A stretch of DNA of 49,671 nucleotides from an uncultured Methylococcaceae bacterium (lineage in GTDB: Bacteria > Pseudomonadota > Gammaproteobacteria > Methylococcales > Methylococcaceae), in NCBI GenBank assembly GCA_903859815.1, contig CAIOOA010000227.1, positions 1 to 49,671 on the forward strand, read 5' to 3'. Positions 10,388-21,710 of the stretch are shown here, piece by piece (within the stretch, counting starts at the first letter, position 1; each line of letters begins with the position of its first letter). Both the position numbers and the translations under genes were made by a program. The notes beneath the pieces are model-generated. The model searched no databases. It saw only the letters and a list, made by a program, of their open reading frames with translations, and was not told the origin of the DNA.

Positions 10388-10984
10388 ATGAATATTTTTC
10401 GTCTAATCGTGAGTATAGTTCTCTTCAATGCTTCGGTATCGATGTGTGAAGCAAGTTTGATCTTTAATGTGTACCAGAACGGTGCGAATGTTGTTGCAAC
10501 GGGAAGCGGCACAGTCAATCTTAATGGGTTGACCCCTGACGGTAGTGGCGGTGGTAATGGAGCTGTATTCGCAAGTCTTGGCTCTTTTGTGAATGGTCCA
10601 GATACGTGGATGCCTATTAATTATTATAGCGGTATAGCTGGACCTTTAACTTTCGGAAGTGGGGGGGCGTTTTATTCATCGTCCGGCACTGGTGATAGAT
10701 TTGGTATTAATCGTGGTGCGAATGATGTCATCGTGCCTCAAGGCTATGTGTCTGGTTCTGCTCTTTCTGGGACAGGAATTTGGAATAACAGTACACTCAA
10801 TAGTTTGGGTCTAATCGCTGGAACCTATACATGGACTTGGGGCAGTGGTTCTAATGCGGACTTCGCAACACTGACGATTGGAAATAACAGTGTTCCTGAG
10901 CCCGATACTAGCCTGTTATTACTATCAGGCTTCGCCGTGAGCTTCGGTTCCACTCGCCTTTTTGGACGAAAAAAGAGCGTTTAG
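10388..10984 (+). CDS. PEP-CTERM sorting domain secreted protein
   Basis: A 198-aa exported protein. Residues 1-22 are a signal peptide. The middle is Gly/Ser/Asn/Thr-rich with beta-strand character and no recognised domain. The C-terminus carries VPEPDTSLLLLSGF, a hydrophobic stretch and the basic tail GRKK, the tripartite PEP-CTERM signal cleaved by an exosortase in the inner membrane of exopolysaccharide-producing Gram-negatives. AAGG about 9 bp before the ATG supports the start. No exosortase gene is in this window, so one must lie elsewhere. It is monocistronic, bounded by hairpins on both sides. Confidence 0.85.
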   Translation: MNIFRLIVSIVLFNASVSMCEASLIFNVYQNGANVVATGSGTVNLNGLTPDGSGGGNGAVFASLGSFVNGPDTWMPINYYSGIAGPLTFGSGGAFYSSSGTGDRFGINRGANDVIVPQGYVSGSALSGTGIWNNSTLNSLGLIAGTYTWTWGSGSNADFATLTIGNNSVPEPDTSLLLLSGFAVSFGSTRLFGRKKSV

Positions 10985-13704: not shown

Positions 13705-14808
13705 TTAGTTTTTTGCTTTCAGTTCTTGGCAGGCCATCTCGATATACCGCGCATTGTCCAACCGAACCATCAAAGACATGACAAAGTAGCCATGTGGAAG
13801 CTTGGGGCATTCTTCTTGATGACGTAGACGATAAAAGGGTTTGCCGGCATGGATATGGTGGTCGGCATGACGAGATAGCCCAATGAAGGTATGCAAGGTG
13901 AACCAAGAGTCAGTGGCCCAAGCACAGTTGGAAGACAATTTGGAACCGTCGCGGGTAAGTCCCCAATGTTGGATATAATTGACAGCCTCCAACATGCGCA
14001 ACGCAACGAAGGACTGATAAATAAACATCAACAAGGCAATGAAGCCATATTGATGGATTATCAACCCTAGCAAAGCCAGTTCAATCGCCATTCCATGCAT
14101 CATCCTATGGTGCAACAGCCATTGCAAACCCTTGTGATGCTGAAGTCTTTGCCCCTCCAAGCGCCATGCATTGTTCCACTGTCCGACAACCGAGCGTCTG
14201 AAAAAGTTGGGAAAGTTTTCACCAAGGCGAGCCGTTGCAGGATCGGCTGAACTACCCACCCTGCGATGATGCCCATGGGCATGTTCCAAGGCAAAATGGT
14301 CGTAACAAACCGTCCAAAGCAGTATCCTAGCCATCATACGCATGTGCCTAGAACGTCGGTGGAGCAGTTCATGGGCGACAGCAATGCCAGAACAACAGGA
14401 GGTTGTGCCCATTAGAATGCGAAAGGCTATGATGTTGACCACACTCGTGCCTACATCGAACGGTGTGGCCCAAGCGAGTCGACTGGTGGCTGACAACAAC
14501 AACATGATGTTGACGATCTGCAAGGCGAACAAACCATAAAGGCGCATATCCAATAACCATTCTTTGCCATCCAGTTTTGGAAGGCTTTGATCGGACGGGC
14601 TAAAATAATCGGCAACAATACACAACCAAACCGGAACCGTCCAAATCAATGCGGCATACCAAACATGGGGGGCGGCGGACAAACAAAAGAACGTGGAAAG
14701 TGGCAAAATGAAACACAATAAACCCTCAGCCCACTGTCTAATGTTGTGGACACAGCCTAGAGTTTTGAAGGCAGAAACTTTTCCAATATTCAGCAAGGAA
14801 ATGGACAT
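13705..14808 (-). CDS. AlkB-like membrane diiron hydroxylase
   Basis: A 367-aa integral membrane protein of the fatty-acid desaturase/alkane 1-monooxygenase superfamily, with about six helices and all four AlkB histidine boxes: HELLH (146-150), EHAHGHH (175-181), NYIQHWGL (277-284; AlkB consensus NYxEHYGL, so Glu is Gln here) and SRHADHH (312-318). AlkB enzymes hydroxylate terminal carbons of alkyl chains using O2 and rubredoxin; no rubredoxin gene is adjacent. Its start is only 45 bp from the divergent carbamoyltransferase gene, which suggests a shared promoter region and a tailoring role. The exact substrate is unknown. Confidence 0.85.
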   Translation of the reverse strand: MSISLLNIGKVSAFKTLGCVHNIRQWAEGLLCFILPLSTFFCLSAAPHVWYAALIWTVPVWLCIVADYFSPSDQSLPKLDGKEWLLDMRLYGLFALQIVNIMLLLSATSRLAWATPFDVGTSVVNIIAFRILMGTTSCCSGIAVAHELLHRRSRHMRMMARILLWTVCYDHFALEHAHGHHRRVGSSADPATARLGENFPNFFRRSVVGQWNNAWRLEGQRLQHHKGLQWLLHHRMMHGMAIELALLGLIIHQYGFIALLMFIYQSFVALRMLEAVNYIQHWGLTRDGSKLSSNCAWATDSWFTLHTFIGLSRHADHHIHAGKPFYRLRHQEECPKLPHGYFVMSLMVRLDNARYIEMACQELKAKN

Positions 14809-14853
14809 GGCATTAAACGATTATTCATTCCACTAATTAGACACAAGATCCCA

Positions 14854-16605
14854 ATGGCCACGAAAACCTATTACATCGGCTTGGGGGTGACTTACCACGA
14901 CCCGGCCTTGGCCATCGTCGATGATACCGGTAAGCCACTCTTTGCCGAAGCCAGTGAACGCCACTTGCAATCCAAACGTGCCATCAACGGGGAAGCAGAC
15001 ATTGTTTTCCGAATTCCTAAGTTGCTACGTGAATTCTGCCCGGATGCCGGACGTTTCGTAATCGCCACCAACTGGCGCAGAAAACGGCCCTGGTATGAGA
15101 ACCTTGTGTCCCAATTGGGATTGTTGGACGCAAGAGGACTTCATCGGCAAGGCATCAAGACATTGCGCTCCCCATTGCACAATCGCCATATTCACCACAT
15201 GATGGCGTGCAACCGCCACAGCATTGCCCGTTCTGGTTTAAACCTCGCCCGACTGCTGGCTGAGGAATACCGTTCTTCCACCATTGCCTTTTACGACTTT
15301 GACCATCACGACACTCATGCCGCTTTAGCCTGTCACGCCAGCCCATTCCAAGAAGCCGCCTGTGCCGTCATCGATTCCTATGGCGAAAACGGTTCCCTAG
15401 GTTTCTACCATTACCGCAATGGGACTTTGGAACGAATCCACGAATCGCATGGCTTAGGAAGCCTGGGCTTATATTACATGCACATCACTGCCTTGTGTGG
15501 CTTTGACTGGATGCAAGGGGAAGAATGGAAAGTCATGGGGCTTGCCCCTTATGGTTGTCTGGATGAAGAAGTCTATCGCTTATTGCAGGATATACTGACG
15601 GTAAAAGGTCTCAATTTGGAGCATCCGCGTGGAAGAATGTTCCCGGCTTTGTTGAACTTGGAGAAAAAGCGGAGGACTTTGGGCGAACCCGGCGAACGGG
15701 CTGCCGACCTAGCCTACACTGGGCAGTTTTTTTTCGCCCAAATCATGACGAAAATCCTATCGAACTTTCACCAATCATTGCCTAGCGATAATTTGGCGCT
15801 GGCAGGGGGTTGCGCACTCAACTCTTCATTCAATGGGCAAATCACCCGCAACACGCCGTTTTGCAATCTGTATGTCCCCTCGGCCCCGGCTGACGATGGC
15901 ACGGCCTTGGGCGCGGCCTGGATGGCCTTTGCCAAAGAACAGGGTTCCGTTCCCATTGCTTCATTCCCCTTGCCAGCCTATCTGGGTTCGGAGATTTCCC
16001 CTGAAGCCTTGGCAAGATTGGTGCGATTTTCCACTGGATTGACCATTCGCCACTTACCGGAAACCATCTTTCAAGAAACAGCCAGTCAGCTTGCCAATGG
16101 CAAACTAGTCGCTTGGGTTCAGGGACGGGCCGAATTTGGCCCACGCGCTTTGGGAAACCGTTCCATCCTCGCCGACCCCCGCGACCCCGGCATGAAGGCG
16201 AGAATCAACGACCGGGTTAAATTTCGTGAGGAATTCCGTCCCTTTGCCCCCTCCATTTTGCATGAACATGGCCCCGATTATTTTGTCGATTATCGGGAGA
16301 CGCCTTATATGGAACAAGCCCTGCGTTTCCACCCTGAAGCGGCTAGGCGGGTGCCGGCGGTGGTGCATGTGGACGGCAGTGGGCGCTTGCAAACGGTCAA
16401 ACAGGAGTGGAACCCCGCATTTCATCGCCTACTGACTGCCTTTCACAAGGAAACGGGCATTCCCTTATTGTTGAACACTAGTTTCAATGTCATGGGCAAG
16501 CCGATGGTTCATACGGTGGAAGATGCAATCGCAGTGTTCATGACCAGTGGGCTTGACCTTCTGGTCATCGGCGATTGGCTTATCGCCAAACCGGAGGCCG
16601 CATGA
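14854..16605 (+). CDS. Carbamoyltransferase, NodU/CmcH/TobZ family
   Basis: A 583-aa two-domain enzyme that uses carbamoyl phosphate and ATP to O-carbamoylate a hydroxyl. The N-terminal Kae1-like domain has the metal-binding DHHDTHAA (150-157), IDSYGENGS and the nucleotide loop ALAGGCALNSSFNG. The C-terminal domain carries GRAEFGPRALGNRSILADPR (about 423-442) and LLNTSFNVMGKPMVHT. The family modifies Nod factors, antibiotics and other natural products. The next gene starts inside its stop codon (ATGA overlap), so the HDO-like protein is its obligate neighbour. The acceptor is unknown. Confidence 0.93.
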   Translation: MATKTYYIGLGVTYHDPALAIVDDTGKPLFAEASERHLQSKRAINGEADIVFRIPKLLREFCPDAGRFVIATNWRRKRPWYENLVSQLGLLDARGLHRQGIKTLRSPLHNRHIHHMMACNRHSIARSGLNLARLLAEEYRSSTIAFYDFDHHDTHAALACHASPFQEAACAVIDSYGENGSLGFYHYRNGTLERIHESHGLGSLGLYYMHITALCGFDWMQGEEWKVMGLAPYGCLDEEVYRLLQDILTVKGLNLEHPRGRMFPALLNLEKKRRTLGEPGERAADLAYTGQFFFAQIMTKILSNFHQSLPSDNLALAGGCALNSSFNGQITRNTPFCNLYVPSAPADDGTALGAAWMAFAKEQGSVPIASFPLPAYLGSEISPEALARLVRFSTGLTIRHLPETIFQETASQLANGKLVAWVQGRAEFGPRALGNRSILADPRDPGMKARINDRVKFREEFRPFAPSILHEHGPDYFVDYRETPYMEQALRFHPEAARRVPAVVHVDGSGRLQTVKQEWNPAFHRLLTAFHKETGIPLLLNTSFNVMGKPMVHTVEDAIAVFMTSGLDLLVIGDWLIAKPEAA

Positions 16606-18770
16606 ACGGACGATTTTTGCCTATTGAAGGAGAAGAAGCGTTATTACGCGACCAGTTCCATCGGTTTGCCAATGCCCGTGAAAATCCTCACATCTTGGCG
16701 GAAGCCAAAGAATGGTTAGTGGGTTTATTGGCATCCACTCCCGCCATTTCGTCTGAAGAATGGTGCATTGAGCCATCGCCGATCATTGGAAAATCCGAAT
16801 GGGACTTTCTGCCCAACCCCGAAACAGCCGATGCGGACTTGCTTGCATTCCATGCGCCTTTGGGTCTGTTGGAAGGGGCATGGCTGCAATCTGTGGCTGT
16901 GGCCGGCAACACTGACTCGGAACCCGTCAATAGTCTTTTCGCCTGTTATCTAGCCTTACTTGGCAAAGATGAATCATGTTCGCCAGCCTTTGCCTATCGC
17001 GGATTATTGAACCAAAATCGAATGAGTTTGCCCGTAGTAACCGCTTGGCAATTTGCACACAACCCTCGCCTAGGCCAAGCTGCACTGGCTTTTGCCAATC
17101 TGCAACTGGCGTTGGGCTTACATTCGGCTACCTTATTGCCAGAAACATTGGGGTTCACCCTAGCCTATGTCCAAAGCCCATCGCCTTGGAGACTACCAGC
17201 CTTGAATTCTGACCAGAGGGAGGCAGTCCTGGCCAATATGGACGCCCAAGTCAATCATGCACTCCTGGCATTTTCGGAACATGCCGAGAGTCACAACAGG
17301 GTGAGTAAAGGGTTCGCGCTCCATAGAACATTTGAAGCTCACTATCTAAACAAGCTAAGGGCGTTTGACCAAAGGTTTAGGCCAAAGGCAGAAGAGGTAG
17401 CCCAGATGATTCGCCGAAAACTGCCCTTTGCAAAAGGCTATCATGCCAACGTGAAGCTTGGGGGGCGGGGTTTGGAGGAATGGTTCGCTGACACTCCCTT
17501 TGACATGCTTGGTTTTCTCAAAGCGTTCTCTGTTTCCAGTTTTGCCCAAGGCAACCGGGTTAGTCGACCGTTTGATCGATTAACCCGCTTCGGCGGCCCT
17601 ATGTTTGGGGTATTTGATAATGAAGAGATGGAGCTAATCCATGCATGGTTGGACGAAACCCTTGCAAACCGTGGCACTCCTCAATTGAATGCATACGGTA
17701 CGGGCGAACCAAACCATCAGGACACAGCCACACCAAAAAACTCTGCAACGCGGGTGTTTACCCATTCGCGACAGACCGATCAAGATTTTGACGAAGAGGA
17801 TTGCCGTGGCCTGAAGTTAACAACGGCTTTTCTAGGACGCATAGACAATCGAAAGCTGTTTCACTTGCTGGTCAACCAAGACCTCCAACCGACTACTTTA
17901 AATTTGGCACGACAACGGGTGGAAAGAGTGTTGGCCCAAACCCGGTTGAGTCGGTTTGGTGGCAATCCCAATCAACGATTCTTCAGCTATGATCCAAATG
18001 TTTTCACTCAGCGCATTGTACAAATTCATCACATGGAAATCTCCAAGTATAAGCCCGTGCAAGCTTCGCCCACTTTGCGTAGGGAAGAGTTAATTTGGGT
18101 CATACGCCAATTCGCGCCGGCCATACTCGTCGATGGATGTTGGTTGCAACATATAGGCAATCCTGCGACGCAAGACCAGCGCAAATCTCGTCTTCTACAG
18201 CGCATTTATGCGGAGGAACTGGGGGATGGCAGGGCTGACTGGAACCACCCAAAAATATATCGTGATTTGCTAAATGACTTGGCAATAGACTTGCCGACCA
18301 TTGCAAGAAGGGCTTTCGCCGAAGAGCCAAGCCTGCTGAATTCATCCTTCGACCTCCCTAGCTATCTGCTTGCCATTTCCCAGTTCCCACGAACCTTCCT
18401 TCCAGAGTTGCTGGGACTTAATTTAGCCATCGAACTGAGCGGACTGGGAGCTGGTTACCTGAGGCTGGCAGAGGAATTGGGTTATTGGAAAATCAATCCA
18501 TTAATTGTGAATCTGCATTTATCCATTGACAATCTCGCTGGCGGTCACGCCGCCATGGCCTGCGAAGCCATTCAATTACATATGGACGAGGTATTGTCTT
18601 TAGCCGGTGCTGACATGGGCAATAAAACATGGCGTAGGATTTGGACTGGCTATCGTTCGCTAAACTGTGCCACACGCTGGTTTAAATTGGCATTGATAAC
18701 AGGCTTCTTACGGCATTTTATGCCGCAAAGATTGCTTAGCTTTACAAAAAACGATTATAATTCAATATGA
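16602..18770 (+). CDS. Large iron-containing redox enzyme, heme-oxygenase-like diiron (HDO) fold
   Basis: A 722-aa protein with the ATG overlapping the carbamoyltransferase stop; a frame extending 27 bp upstream lacks a better start. Residues 1-300 match no family I recognise. The C-terminal third looks like Haem_oxygenas_2 'iron-containing redox enzyme': YAEELGDGRADWNHPKIYRDL (Glu538/539, His549), IELSG (Glu611) and HLSIDNLAGGH (His639, Asp643, His649) give the Glu/His/Glu/His/Asp/His ligand set of HDO oxidases such as SznF, UndA and CADD. The last His is at D+6 instead of the usual D+3, so it may be a distinct subgroup. Likely an O2-dependent tailoring enzyme acting with the carbamoyltransferase. 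Confidence 0.75.
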   Translation: MNGRFLPIEGEEALLRDQFHRFANARENPHILAEAKEWLVGLLASTPAISSEEWCIEPSPIIGKSEWDFLPNPETADADLLAFHAPLGLLEGAWLQSVAVAGNTDSEPVNSLFACYLALLGKDESCSPAFAYRGLLNQNRMSLPVVTAWQFAHNPRLGQAALAFANLQLALGLHSATLLPETLGFTLAYVQSPSPWRLPALNSDQREAVLANMDAQVNHALLAFSEHAESHNRVSKGFALHRTFEAHYLNKLRAFDQRFRPKAEEVAQMIRRKLPFAKGYHANVKLGGRGLEEWFADTPFDMLGFLKAFSVSSFAQGNRVSRPFDRLTRFGGPMFGVFDNEEMELIHAWLDETLANRGTPQLNAYGTGEPNHQDTATPKNSATRVFTHSRQTDQDFDEEDCRGLKLTTAFLGRIDNRKLFHLLVNQDLQPTTLNLARQRVERVLAQTRLSRFGGNPNQRFFSYDPNVFTQRIVQIHHMEISKYKPVQASPTLRREELIWVIRQFAPAILVDGCWLQHIGNPATQDQRKSRLLQRIYAEELGDGRADWNHPKIYRDLLNDLAIDLPTIARRAFAEEPSLLNSSFDLPSYLLAISQFPRTFLPELLGLNLAIELSGLGAGYLRLAEELGYWKINPLIVNLHLSIDNLAGGHAAMACEAIQLHMDEVLSLAGADMGNKTWRRIWTGYRSLNCATRWFKLALITGFLRHFMPQRLLSFTKNDYNSI

Positions 18771-19325: not shown

Positions 19326-21710
19326 ATGGTTAAGCAATCGGCAACATTCATTATTGCAGGCTTGCAACGCCTATTGGCAATCATGGTGATCGCAATCACC
19401 ACCTATTGCGTTGCTAATTATCCTTATGCAAGCATTTGGTTAAGTTTGATCCTTATAGCCTATGCCTTATGCTTGTTGATTGCGCCCTCGATTTGGTTGC
19501 TGGCAATTCCAACCATCTTGCCACTGCTGAACTTGGCCCCGTGGAGTGGGCGGTTTTTTCTCGAAGAATTTGATTTCTTCATTTGGGTGACCTTAGCCTC
19601 TTCGCTTTGGCAGGGTGACTTCATCGCATCACACCGCCCACGATTTTCCTTTACCCCTAGCCTGTTGATCGGTCTTTTTCTGACCACTCATAGTATTGCC
19701 ATGCTGCGAGGTTTATTTCCATTGGCTGCAATTGATGCTAACGCATTCAGCAGTTACTATAGTCAATATAATGGGCTCAGGGTTGGCAAATCATTATTCT
19801 GGGCCGCATTACTCATACCTGCCATGCTACGAGCATTTTCTACAAACCAAGTGCGAGCGCGTCATTACTTGACCCTTGGAATTTCGATTGGACTTATTGG
19901 CACTGGGATTGCCGTGCTTTGGGAGCGTGGTGTTTTTATCGACTTGGTTTATGGCGATACCATATACCAGAAACTAAGAAACTTGACTGACTTTAGCACT
20001 GATTATCGAATTACTGCACTTTTTTCAGAAATGCATACTGGGGGAGAAGCAGTGGATGGTTATATTGCTTTGACTTGGCCTTTTGCTTTGGCTGGCTTAG
20101 TGACAGCAGTATCGAAAATAGAAATGGGTATTGAAGCGATGGCATTATCTGCCGGACTTTATTCTGCACTAGTCACATTTTCTAGGGGAACTTATGCCGC
20201 CATAGGGGTTTCCCTTGTGGCATTCGCAGTATTGTATGCCGTAGGCAAAACACGGCGTGAAGTCTCAAGCAAGCAATCTTGGCATGTTCCTATCATATTG
20301 TTGGCTACCGTTGCGATTTGCTCAATACTTTATGTAAAAGGAGGTTATTATTCATTGATAGCCGCCATGGCGATATTTGGCTGTACCATTCTACTAGGAT
20401 TTATTAACGGGCTGCGACACGGGGTACGAATATTATTGATGGCTCTGGTTTGCTTGGGAGGGTTTGCTCTGATGATGCGCGGTTTGCTGACATCAAAGTG
20501 GGTGGATAATGGATTCGTCGAATCGTTGGCGATTAGCCTCCCCATGTCTGTTGGTTTACTGGCATCAGGGATATTCATCGGTATTCAAACGCGCAAGTTT
20601 TTCAGTTTACGTGAAGTGGGCATCAGCTTGACTTTTATCATCACAGTGATTGTTTTGTGCGTACCCGCTTTGTCCGGTAGTTACATGAAAAGCCGATTCA
20701 CCACAACCCATGATGACTTTGGCAGTCGAATCAATCATTGGCAACATGCCATGGCATTAATGGATTCGAGTTGGGATACTTTATTTTTTGGCATGGGATT
20801 AGGCGTATTCCCACGCACTTACCTATGGGGGAAGGAATCTGAAAAATCCAGCATGGCAACCCTCAATGAAGAGGGGGGCAACACATCGCTGAGGCTCAGC
20901 AATAGCATGGATTTAGCCATAGGGCAGAGAGTCCACTTGGAAGCCGAACAAGTTTATAGACTATCTCTCGATTATAAATCCAATGCCAGCATTGGAACGT
21001 TGGATATCAGCATTTGCAGACGCAATATTATTGTCCCTTGGGATTCTGATTGCATTTCGACTTCTCAGGCAATCAAACCGGGAAAATGGCAACATTTTGA
21101 ATGGGAATTAAACATGGGCCAAATCGGCGATGGGGTTCAGATTGGTAGACGCCCTTTGGCTCTTCGTTTCACCCACTTCTATTATCAACCACAAGGGGAT
21201 TATAATTTACCACTGAATTTTATCGAAATCGACAACATCCAGTTAATGGATCGTTATGGATGGAATCATGTGACTAACGGACAGTTCGAACACGGCTTGG
21301 ATAATTGGTTTCCTACTTCAGATCATTCCCACTTGCCTTTACACATTAAAAACCTTTGGGTCAATATATTTTTTGAACAAGGTTTGTTTGGTTTATTTGC
21401 ATTCCTTGCATTAACTCTCTATGCACTCATTATAGGAATACGCATAGCCCGTCGAGGTGATATATTTGCCATGACCTTGGTGTCTTCTGCAATGGGTTTC
21501 TTTTCTGTTGGACTGATAGGCACTTTATATGATGTTCCAAGGGTGATTTTTTTATTTTTCTTATTATTGTTCACTTTGTTGGCACAAGACCCTGCGCTAA
21601 TGAATCAGATTTCCAAGCGAAAGCCAGTCAATATCAGCCCTGATGAATTGCCTAAAATGAGAAATTCATTTATTCAGCCCCCTGCTAATCTAAAGCAGAT
21701 AATGTTTTAA
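19326..21710 (+). CDS. O-antigen ligase/polymerase-like membrane protein with inserted beta-sandwich
   Basis: A 794-aa polytopic protein with about a dozen helices. The segment RINHWQHAMALMDSSWDTLFFGMGLGVFP (about 465-495) matches the Wzy_C/WaaL periplasmic loop that binds lipid-linked sugar. Residues about 505-650 form a beta-rich insert resembling a carbohydrate-binding module (VTNGQFEHGLDNWFP), before two last helices. Such proteins ligate or polymerise lipid-linked glycans at the periplasmic face. The insert is not part of classic WaaL. The C-terminal ~45 residues are polar and cytoplasmic. It lies between the channel-like gene and a degenerate GGDEF gene, all on the same strand. I assign the family with confidence but not the substrate. 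Confidence 0.75.
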   Translation: MVKQSATFIIAGLQRLLAIMVIAITTYCVANYPYASIWLSLILIAYALCLLIAPSIWLLAIPTILPLLNLAPWSGRFFLEEFDFFIWVTLASSLWQGDFIASHRPRFSFTPSLLIGLFLTTHSIAMLRGLFPLAAIDANAFSSYYSQYNGLRVGKSLFWAALLIPAMLRAFSTNQVRARHYLTLGISIGLIGTGIAVLWERGVFIDLVYGDTIYQKLRNLTDFSTDYRITALFSEMHTGGEAVDGYIALTWPFALAGLVTAVSKIEMGIEAMALSAGLYSALVTFSRGTYAAIGVSLVAFAVLYAVGKTRREVSSKQSWHVPIILLATVAICSILYVKGGYYSLIAAMAIFGCTILLGFINGLRHGVRILLMALVCLGGFALMMRGLLTSKWVDNGFVESLAISLPMSVGLLASGIFIGIQTRKFFSLREVGISLTFIITVIVLCVPALSGSYMKSRFTTTHDDFGSRINHWQHAMALMDSSWDTLFFGMGLGVFPRTYLWGKESEKSSMATLNEEGGNTSLRLSNSMDLAIGQRVHLEAEQVYRLSLDYKSNASIGTLDISICRRNIIVPWDSDCISTSQAIKPGKWQHFEWELNMGQIGDGVQIGRRPLALRFTHFYYQPQGDYNLPLNFIEIDNIQLMDRYGWNHVTNGQFEHGLDNWFPTSDHSHLPLHIKNLWVNIFFEQGLFGLFAFLALTLYALIIGIRIARRGDIFAMTLVSSAMGFFSVGLIGTLYDVPRVIFLFFLLLFTLLAQDPALMNQISKRKPVNISPDELPKMRNSFIQPPANLKQIMF

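Follow-up and report, generated by a model that had tools for sequence, protein, structure and literature searches.

What joins a membrane hydroxylase of the AlkB type, a carbamoyltransferase (CarbT) and a large protein of the haem-oxygenase-like diiron (HDO) type, whose genes stand side by side on a contig of an uncultured Methylococcaceae bacterium (assembly GCA_903859815.1, contig CAIOOA010000227.1), and what might the three enzymes do together? The stretch analysed here ("the window," 49,671 nucleotides) is the whole of that contig, part of a 5.8-Mb genome that belongs to the same genus as genome G025. An initial annotation of the window had proposed that the three genes form a single, as yet undescribed tailoring cluster. 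That they make up one conserved unit of the Methylococcales is strongly supported by our sequence comparisons, above all by co-occurrence and gene order; the unit is strongly biased to methanotrophs, conserved and apparently undescribed. Its parts are laid out as follows.

13705..14808, minus strand: AlkB-like membrane hydroxylase, 367 amino acids (PF00487, E 3.8e-23; open reading frame open)
14809..14853, no strand: divergent intergenic stretch of 45 bp, from the AlkB start codon to the CarbT start codon (read from the sequence)
14854..16605, plus strand: CarbT, carbamoyltransferase of the NodU/CmcH/TobZ superfamily, 583 amino acids, with both domains (PF02543, PF16861)
16602..18770, plus strand: HDO protein, 722 amino acids, read as degenerate HDO domain, middle domain and catalytic HDO domain (open reading frame, PF14518, AlphaFold2 model)
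16809..17381, plus strand: putative N-terminal degenerate HDO domain of the HDO protein, about residues 70-260 (hhalign against the C-terminal domain; column counts)
17385..17672, plus strand: middle domain of the HDO protein, about residues 262-357, no family match (alignment A5; confident model)
17838..18746, plus strand: putative C-terminal catalytic HDO domain of the HDO protein, residues 413-715 (seven ligand residues invariant in alignment A3)

The three genes lie where the initial annotation had put them: the reading frames are open, the Pfam matches fit the enzyme types it named, and the HDO start codon (ATG at 16602) shares the sequence ATGA with the stop codon of CarbT. This overlap is exactly 4 bp in 21 of the 29 family loci that have both genes (with start codons chosen by rule), and the divergent spacer between AlkB and CarbT is, from the coordinates, also 45 bp in L042, L043 and L044; this stretch presumably contains or overlaps the control region. 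Open reading frames were called mechanically throughout, and most neighbour families carry no annotation.

The gene pair is clearly not absent from related genomes, and the arrangement is more than chance: the HDO gene has relatives in 34 of the 38 family genomes, the window's own included, in 100 of 301 genomes of the order and in 8 of 369 of the class (the window's genome counted in each), and all three genes are present in 26 of the 33 family loci fetched besides the window, with AlkB divergent in these 26. The trio is complete in L061, with AlkB about 4 kb off. Among the seven family loci that lack the full trio, some stop at a contig border and two genomes have AlkB elsewhere (G023 and G017); G023 carries CarbT and AlkB on contig C37 and HDO on C39. 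A second arrangement prevails in the 68 loci from 66 further genomes of the order, where 42 have CarbT-HDO-AlkB on one strand and 12 a divergent AlkB (trio in 54 of 68), with 6 loci lacking AlkB, 6 lacking CarbT and 2 having HDO alone. Outside the window's family the unit is patchy but mostly intact. Among named genomes the trio is present in Methylococcus capsulatus Texas, Methylocaldum sp. 14B, Methylomicrobium sp. RS1, and metagenome-assembled genomes (MAGs) of Methylicorpusculum and Methylohalobius (L124). Two loci of Methylotetracoccus/Methylolobus (L057:8453-10627 and L059:7961-10144) have the HDO gene next to what by eye is a trp/truA/accD-like run, apart from CarbT and AlkB.

The same association holds when whole genomes are counted. 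With cut-offs set to exclude other families (CarbT at E<=1e-100, AlkB at 1e-30, the radical SAM protein described below at 1e-60), CarbT is found in 100 of the 301 order genomes and AlkB in 106, or in 100 once six matches in family f3 are removed, these being distant (31-34% identity) and lying in genomes that have no HDO match. HDO and CarbT are concordant in 289 genomes (94 with both, 195 with neither, 6 with HDO only and 6 with CarbT only), HDO and AlkB in 293 (96 with both, 197 with neither, 4 and 4 discordant), and all three genes are present in 91 of the 107 genomes that have any; pairwise protein distances correlate with a Pearson coefficient of 0.93 for each gene pair over 62 loci. These counts and correlations, like the Fisher value given further on, ignore shared ancestry. 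We nevertheless regard the linkage as functional, because there are two gene orders, because in some genomes the set is split over two contigs (G483, G525 and G503 have radical SAM-CarbT on one contig and HDO-AlkB on the other), and because the unit is patchily present in family f2.

The HDO protein is unusual. It matches PF14518 at residues 499-682 (1.3e-15; 58.1 bits against a gathering score of 28.9), and an AlphaFold2 model built on a 26-row alignment (pLDDT 85.3, pTM 0.80; the linker at 359-411 is of low confidence) has the haem-oxygenase-like fold, Foldseek ranking RohS, HrmI and SznF first among PDB structures (probability 1.00, E 0.0042-0.067). The residues expected as ligands of the putative diiron site that the initial annotation looked for are likewise present. 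Alignment A3 comprises the window and 33 of 84 located C-terminal domains (34 sequences, including Planctomycetota and actinomycetes), and in it D511, E539, H549, E602, H639, D643 and H649 are all invariant; in A1, whose 26 sequences come from the window and from 25 out of 39 loci (L042-L080), six of these are in 26/26 and E539 is in 25/26. E189, E215 and H225 of SznF align with D511, E539 and H549, and the seven residues would make up a 3-His/4-carboxylate (3H/4C) set of the SznF type. The two HDO domains are homologues (hhalign probability 99.8, E 2.1e-28), but the profile alignment gives the N-terminal one no counterpart of H549, H639, D643 or H649; in A1 it keeps E181 (24/26) and a Glu or Asp at position 91 (20/26). 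No hydrophobic segment of the HDO protein exceeds the threshold of our hydropathy test.

Between the two HDO domains lies a middle domain whose only invariant residues are H281, M334 and W349 in A5 (34 rows, from which L078 was dropped for an X in its fragment; A4 has 35 rows). Its own model is confident (pLDDT 90.7, pTM 0.82), yet no Pfam family exceeds its cut-off in 10 fragments, among which two sub-cut-off matches to unrelated families appear at E up to 10, and the best Foldseek probability is 0.04. The invariant His and Met, with cysteines replaced, prompted us to consider a cytochrome c, which Pfam, Foldseek and hhalign did not support: the CxxCH haem attachment motif is absent, the 26 A1 sequences reading A-x-x-[YHFQ]-H, a comparison with a small set of 12 local cytochrome segments gave an hhalign probability of 0.6%, and Foldseek showed no similarity. 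L079 and L080 carry just one HDO domain and, after it, a relative of this middle domain; HDO plus middle domain may therefore be the older unit, later joined to a second HDO. As read from the alignments and the model, the protein brings a tandem, half-degenerate architecture and a conserved middle domain without a convincing family match.

AlkB retains all the histidines of the HExxH, EHxxGHH, NYxQH and RHxDHH motifs, with H146, H150, H171, H176, H180, H181, H281, H314, H317 and H318 in 24/24 sequences of A2 (the window plus 23 out of 26 AlkB-bearing family loci); nine of the motif histidines we take to bind metal. In the PDB it matches the alkane 1-monooxygenase 8f6t (E 6.7e-40), and hydropathy gives six hydrophobic segments, two of which overlap each other. 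It resembles 8f6t and 8sbb in histidine motifs, domain family and hydrophobic segments, and differs in having NYxQH instead of NYxEH and in its linkage to CarbT and HDO. CarbT matches PF02543 (1.3e-27, 97.6 bits) and PF16861 (4.2e-71, 238.4 bits), both over the cut-off, and scores far below the NodU NCBIfam equivalog cut-off (169.8 against 1000 bits). The decarbamoylnovobiocin carbamoyltransferase 9s2t is matched at E 8.7e-71, and GdmN and TobZ are matched as well. With these it shares both domains, and from roughly residue 150 onward it aligns with them as far as its C-terminal end; they are natural-product enzymes whose scaffolds are known, whereas here no scaffold genes lie in the window.

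Among characterized HDO enzymes, the streptozotocin N-nitrosourea synthase SznF/StzF is alike in its HDO fold, in a 3-His/4-carboxylate set with E-x9-H and in having extra fused domains, but SznF carries a C-terminal cupin, whereas here a degenerate HDO and the H/M/W domain precede the catalytic HDO, an Asp stands at the Glu189 position and the set ends in D-x5-H. The 2-aminoimidazole N-oxygenase RohS comes closest in fold (9pfw, with a TM of 0.67 relative to the target's length) and shares the E-x9-H stretch; its matched chain has 278 residues and 15% identity. Saxitoxin-type and other clusters that combine a carbamoyltransferase with oxygenases follow an oxidise-then-carbamoylate logic like that proposed for this unit; unlike it, they are not known to include an HDO, and they have a full scaffold pathway. 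Each of the enzyme types is known; the way they are combined here and the layout of the HDO protein are new variations.

As families, AlkB enzymes act on aliphatic carbon, which they hydroxylate, and TobZ-type carbamoyltransferases form O-carbamates by way of carbamoyl adenylate; SznF and RohS oxygenate nitrogen. Beyond the gene content, gene order, co-occurrence, domain architecture and ligand-residue conservation observed here, we infer reactions, an order of steps, a substrate and a product: we give it an even chance that the trio is one tailoring pathway of gammaproteobacterial methanotrophs that combines hydroxylation by AlkB, carbamoylation by CarbT and N-oxygenation by HDO. AlkB, as a membrane nonhaem diiron hydroxylase, would hydroxylate an aliphatic substrate associated with the membrane; CarbT, with carbamoyl phosphate and ATP, would convert that or another hydroxyl to a carbamate; and the C-terminal diiron site of HDO would N-oxygenate a nitrogen of the product, either an amine or the carbamate nitrogen, while the degenerate N-terminal HDO and the middle domain may serve structure, dimer-like pairing or electron supply. 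The overlap of the CarbT and HDO genes suggests that these two act in consecutive steps. Since no scaffold-making gene is linked to the unit in most lineages, what the enzymes modify is probably an existing lipid or metabolite of the cell. The initial annotation had hypothesised oxidation of an alkyl or amine substrate, capping of a hydroxyl and a scaffold that might be drawn from lipid or glycan metabolism. Its remark that no nonribosomal peptide synthetase, polyketide synthase or glycosyltransferase is adjacent stands for the unit as a whole, to which none is tied; in the genus Methylocaldum, however, an adenylation protein flanks it. Features that the initial annotation did not mention are the tandem HDO build, the middle domain, the strong bias to methanotrophs and the radical SAM partner.

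Several observations weigh against this pathway. The Foldseek E-values are weak (best 0.0042, with no PDB match at E<=0.001), the match of D511, E539 and H549 to SznF positions comes from an alignment with an E of 0.42, and the last ligand step is D-x5-H here against D-x2-H in SznF. In six order genomes HDO occurs with no CarbT above the threshold, and in another six CarbT occurs with no HDO; several of these assemblies are incomplete. All 6 genomes tried outside the Methylococcales have some relative of CarbT at E<=0.001, so that only close CarbT matches are informative, and AlkB was not found, in a search without a positive control, in two genomes resembling USC-gamma that have both HDO and CarbT. 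In favour of N-oxygenation, SznF is described as a 3H/4C N-oxygenase (PMC13108848), and its activity is reported to be abolished when E215, H225, E281, H311, D315 or H318 is changed to Ala (PMC11705231); yet HDO enzymes are also reported to form nitriles, excise an oxime carbon and carry out acetylenase chemistry, and HrmI N-oxygenates with a 3H/3C set (PMC13108848), so that the 3H/4C class is no proof of N-oxygenation.

It is accordingly possible, if rather unlikely, that the pathway is the same but that HDO oxidises carbon rather than nitrogen, by desaturation, C-C cleavage, decarboxylation or hydroxylation. The chemical diversity of HDO enzymes (PMC13108848), the very low sequence similarity to characterized members, and the fact that AlkB and the radical SAM partner are, as families, carbon chemists all speak for it; the best structural and sequence matches, on the other hand, are N-oxygenases, and E539 at the E215 position of SznF yields the 3H/4C set. 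A metal ligand (copper or iron) made independently of methanobactin, with an N-oxygenated carbamate or similar donor, would be an improbable product. M. capsulatus Bath and M. album BG8 are without methanobactin operons, and any chalkophore of theirs must be dissimilar (PMC3621798); the HDO enzyme FlcD helps to build the copper-containing fluopsin C (PMC11363339); class-level carriers of PF02461 (the pMMO/AMO subunit family) are enriched for HDO (4/9 against 4/326), although this comes from few genomes with phylogeny ignored. We rate this explanation slightly higher than we would otherwise have done because a TonB-dependent-receptor family lies about 3 kb or less from the unit in L053-L055 (three of the four Methylocaldum-genus loci; PF00593 in L055), beside P450, luciferase-like monooxygenase and adenylation genes, but the listed neighbour families give no sign, in other lineages, of a receptor conserved with the unit, an MFS transporter adjoins it in four loci only, and AlkB suggests a membrane substrate. 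More daring still, and a decided long shot, is the idea that CarbT and HDO act in sequence on one and the same group: HDO would N-oxygenate the nitrogen of a primary carbamate that CarbT had made on the AlkB-made hydroxyl, and the resulting N-hydroxycarbamate would serve bacteria that have copper monooxygenases as an amphiphilic metal ligand or as a lipid with reactive nitrogen, with the H/M/W domain as a new electron-transfer module, possibly with non-covalent haem.

The unit might be thought to supply the methylcarbamate group of the amino-bacteriohopanepolyols (MC-BHPs) of type I methanotrophs, carbamate-containing compounds reported from all type I strains tested (PMC5100885). We consider this very unlikely. 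MC-triol and MC-pentol are reported from Methylomonas methanica and Methylobacter, and MC-pentol as absent from M. capsulatus, which carries the trio (L098), while the names Methylomonas and Methylobacter occur in 0 of 48 named HDO loci (by a non-exhaustive, two-pattern scan in which many titles give only family or order); 201 of the 301 order genomes have no HDO match, and the MC structure itself is tentative. It is extremely unlikely, finally, that AlkB serves alkane catabolism and lies beside CarbT-HDO by chance. All motif histidines of an alkane 1-monooxygenase are retained, but the presence or absence of AlkB coincides with that of HDO in 293 of the 301 order genomes, it stands in two arrangements with the CarbT-HDO pair, and the six distant f3 matches are in genomes without HDO. 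An alkane 1-monooxygenase annotated in Methylohalobius crimeensis has been described as probably biosynthetic (PMC11507031), in agreement with the pathway reading, though it may not be the same gene as the AlkB of the trio in L124.

The tailoring pathway set out above has an additional candidate partner. Upstream of CarbT and on the same strand, 16 loci carry a radical SAM protein, overlapping or at most 161 bp away in 13 and at 1.2-1.3 kb in 3; leaving aside the three genes, the commonest neighbour family is present in 16 of the loci clustered. PF13282 (DUF4070) was detected in 4/4 members scanned. Its relatives (E<=1e-60) are in 26 of the 301 order genomes, every one in family f2, and 24 of the 26 have an HDO match. 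Of the other two, G540 carries radical SAM-CarbT followed by an HDO gene that is truncated after its start by the contig border; G502 (L226) has only fragments of the radical SAM gene left and no HDO match. In part of family f2 this DUF4070 enzyme would add a further modification. Also in f2, another Ion_trans_2 family adjoins the unit in six loci and an MFS transporter (PF13347) family in four, divergent from CarbT in L147 (11630-13018). The MoaA, TraB-family, K channel, membrane protein and GGDEF genes were considered as members of the unit and rejected, being common only to the loci of the window's genus and G037. In the window, no tRNA was found, no Rfam family reached its gathering score and no scaffold-making gene is present; a small protein with a sub-threshold PEP-CTERM signal lies at 10388-10984, and a 794-aa protein, membrane-like by eye and without a Pfam match at E<=0.1, at 19326-21710, clustering only with three loci of the genus.

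The surroundings change in other lineages. Four loci from the genus to which Methylocaldum sp. 14B belongs have P450, luciferase-like monooxygenase and adenylation genes on the flanks of the trio; this setting is listed for L058, L053-L055, L104 and L122, the last of which is titled Methyloversatilis universalis and matches that genus. More distant HDO relatives occur in Burkholderia ubonensis, Nocardia, Pseudonocardiaceae and Halopolyspora. In B. ubonensis (L109:9848-21662) a distant HDO-CarbT pair is followed by GDSL-like (just under the cut-off), amidohydrolase, desaturase, CMAS and P450 genes; the desaturase was tried as a relative of AlkB and not supported (best E 0.005 over 79 columns). 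The Halopolyspora relative sits among adenylation, acyl-CoA dehydrogenase-like and methyltransferase genes. The settings in the Methylocaldum genus, Burkholderia and the actinomycetes look like secondary metabolism. Near the actinomycete relatives lie methyltransferase, acyl-CoA dehydrogenase-like, PEP-utiliser, adenylation and PIG-L genes (L127), PPDK/PEP-utiliser, Rv2466c-like and PIG-L genes with an adenylation match (L123), and CarbT with an adenylation match (L126).

USC-gamma bacteria are atmospheric methane oxidisers. The two genomes resembling them, which are of another family, combine HDO with a methane/ammonia monooxygenase gene (PF02461) and a close CarbT (54% and 51% identity), the CarbT adjoining HDO in the first and on a separate contig in the second. 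G359 is positive for PF02461 too; it has HDO, and its CarbT is more distant (36%). At class level HDO is found in 4 of 9 PF02461-positive genomes against 4 of 326 others (Fisher p 1.6e-5), a test that involves few genomes and joins a set of 369 with a set of 335 on the assumption that the second lies within the first. PF02461 has no match in the window's own 99%-complete assembly (G000), though its kin are methanotrophs; assembly or binning may have lost the gene.

No description of the unit was found in the literature searched, which was judged by titles and the beginnings of abstracts, with most subscription papers outside its scope. A conserved O2-dependent pathway would be present in well-studied organisms, among them the model methanotroph Methylococcus capsulatus, with its HDO and CarbT genes also in two USC-gamma-like genomes that carry a methane/ammonia monooxygenase gene, and what appears to be a conserved piece of methanotroph chemistry would so far have gone undescribed.

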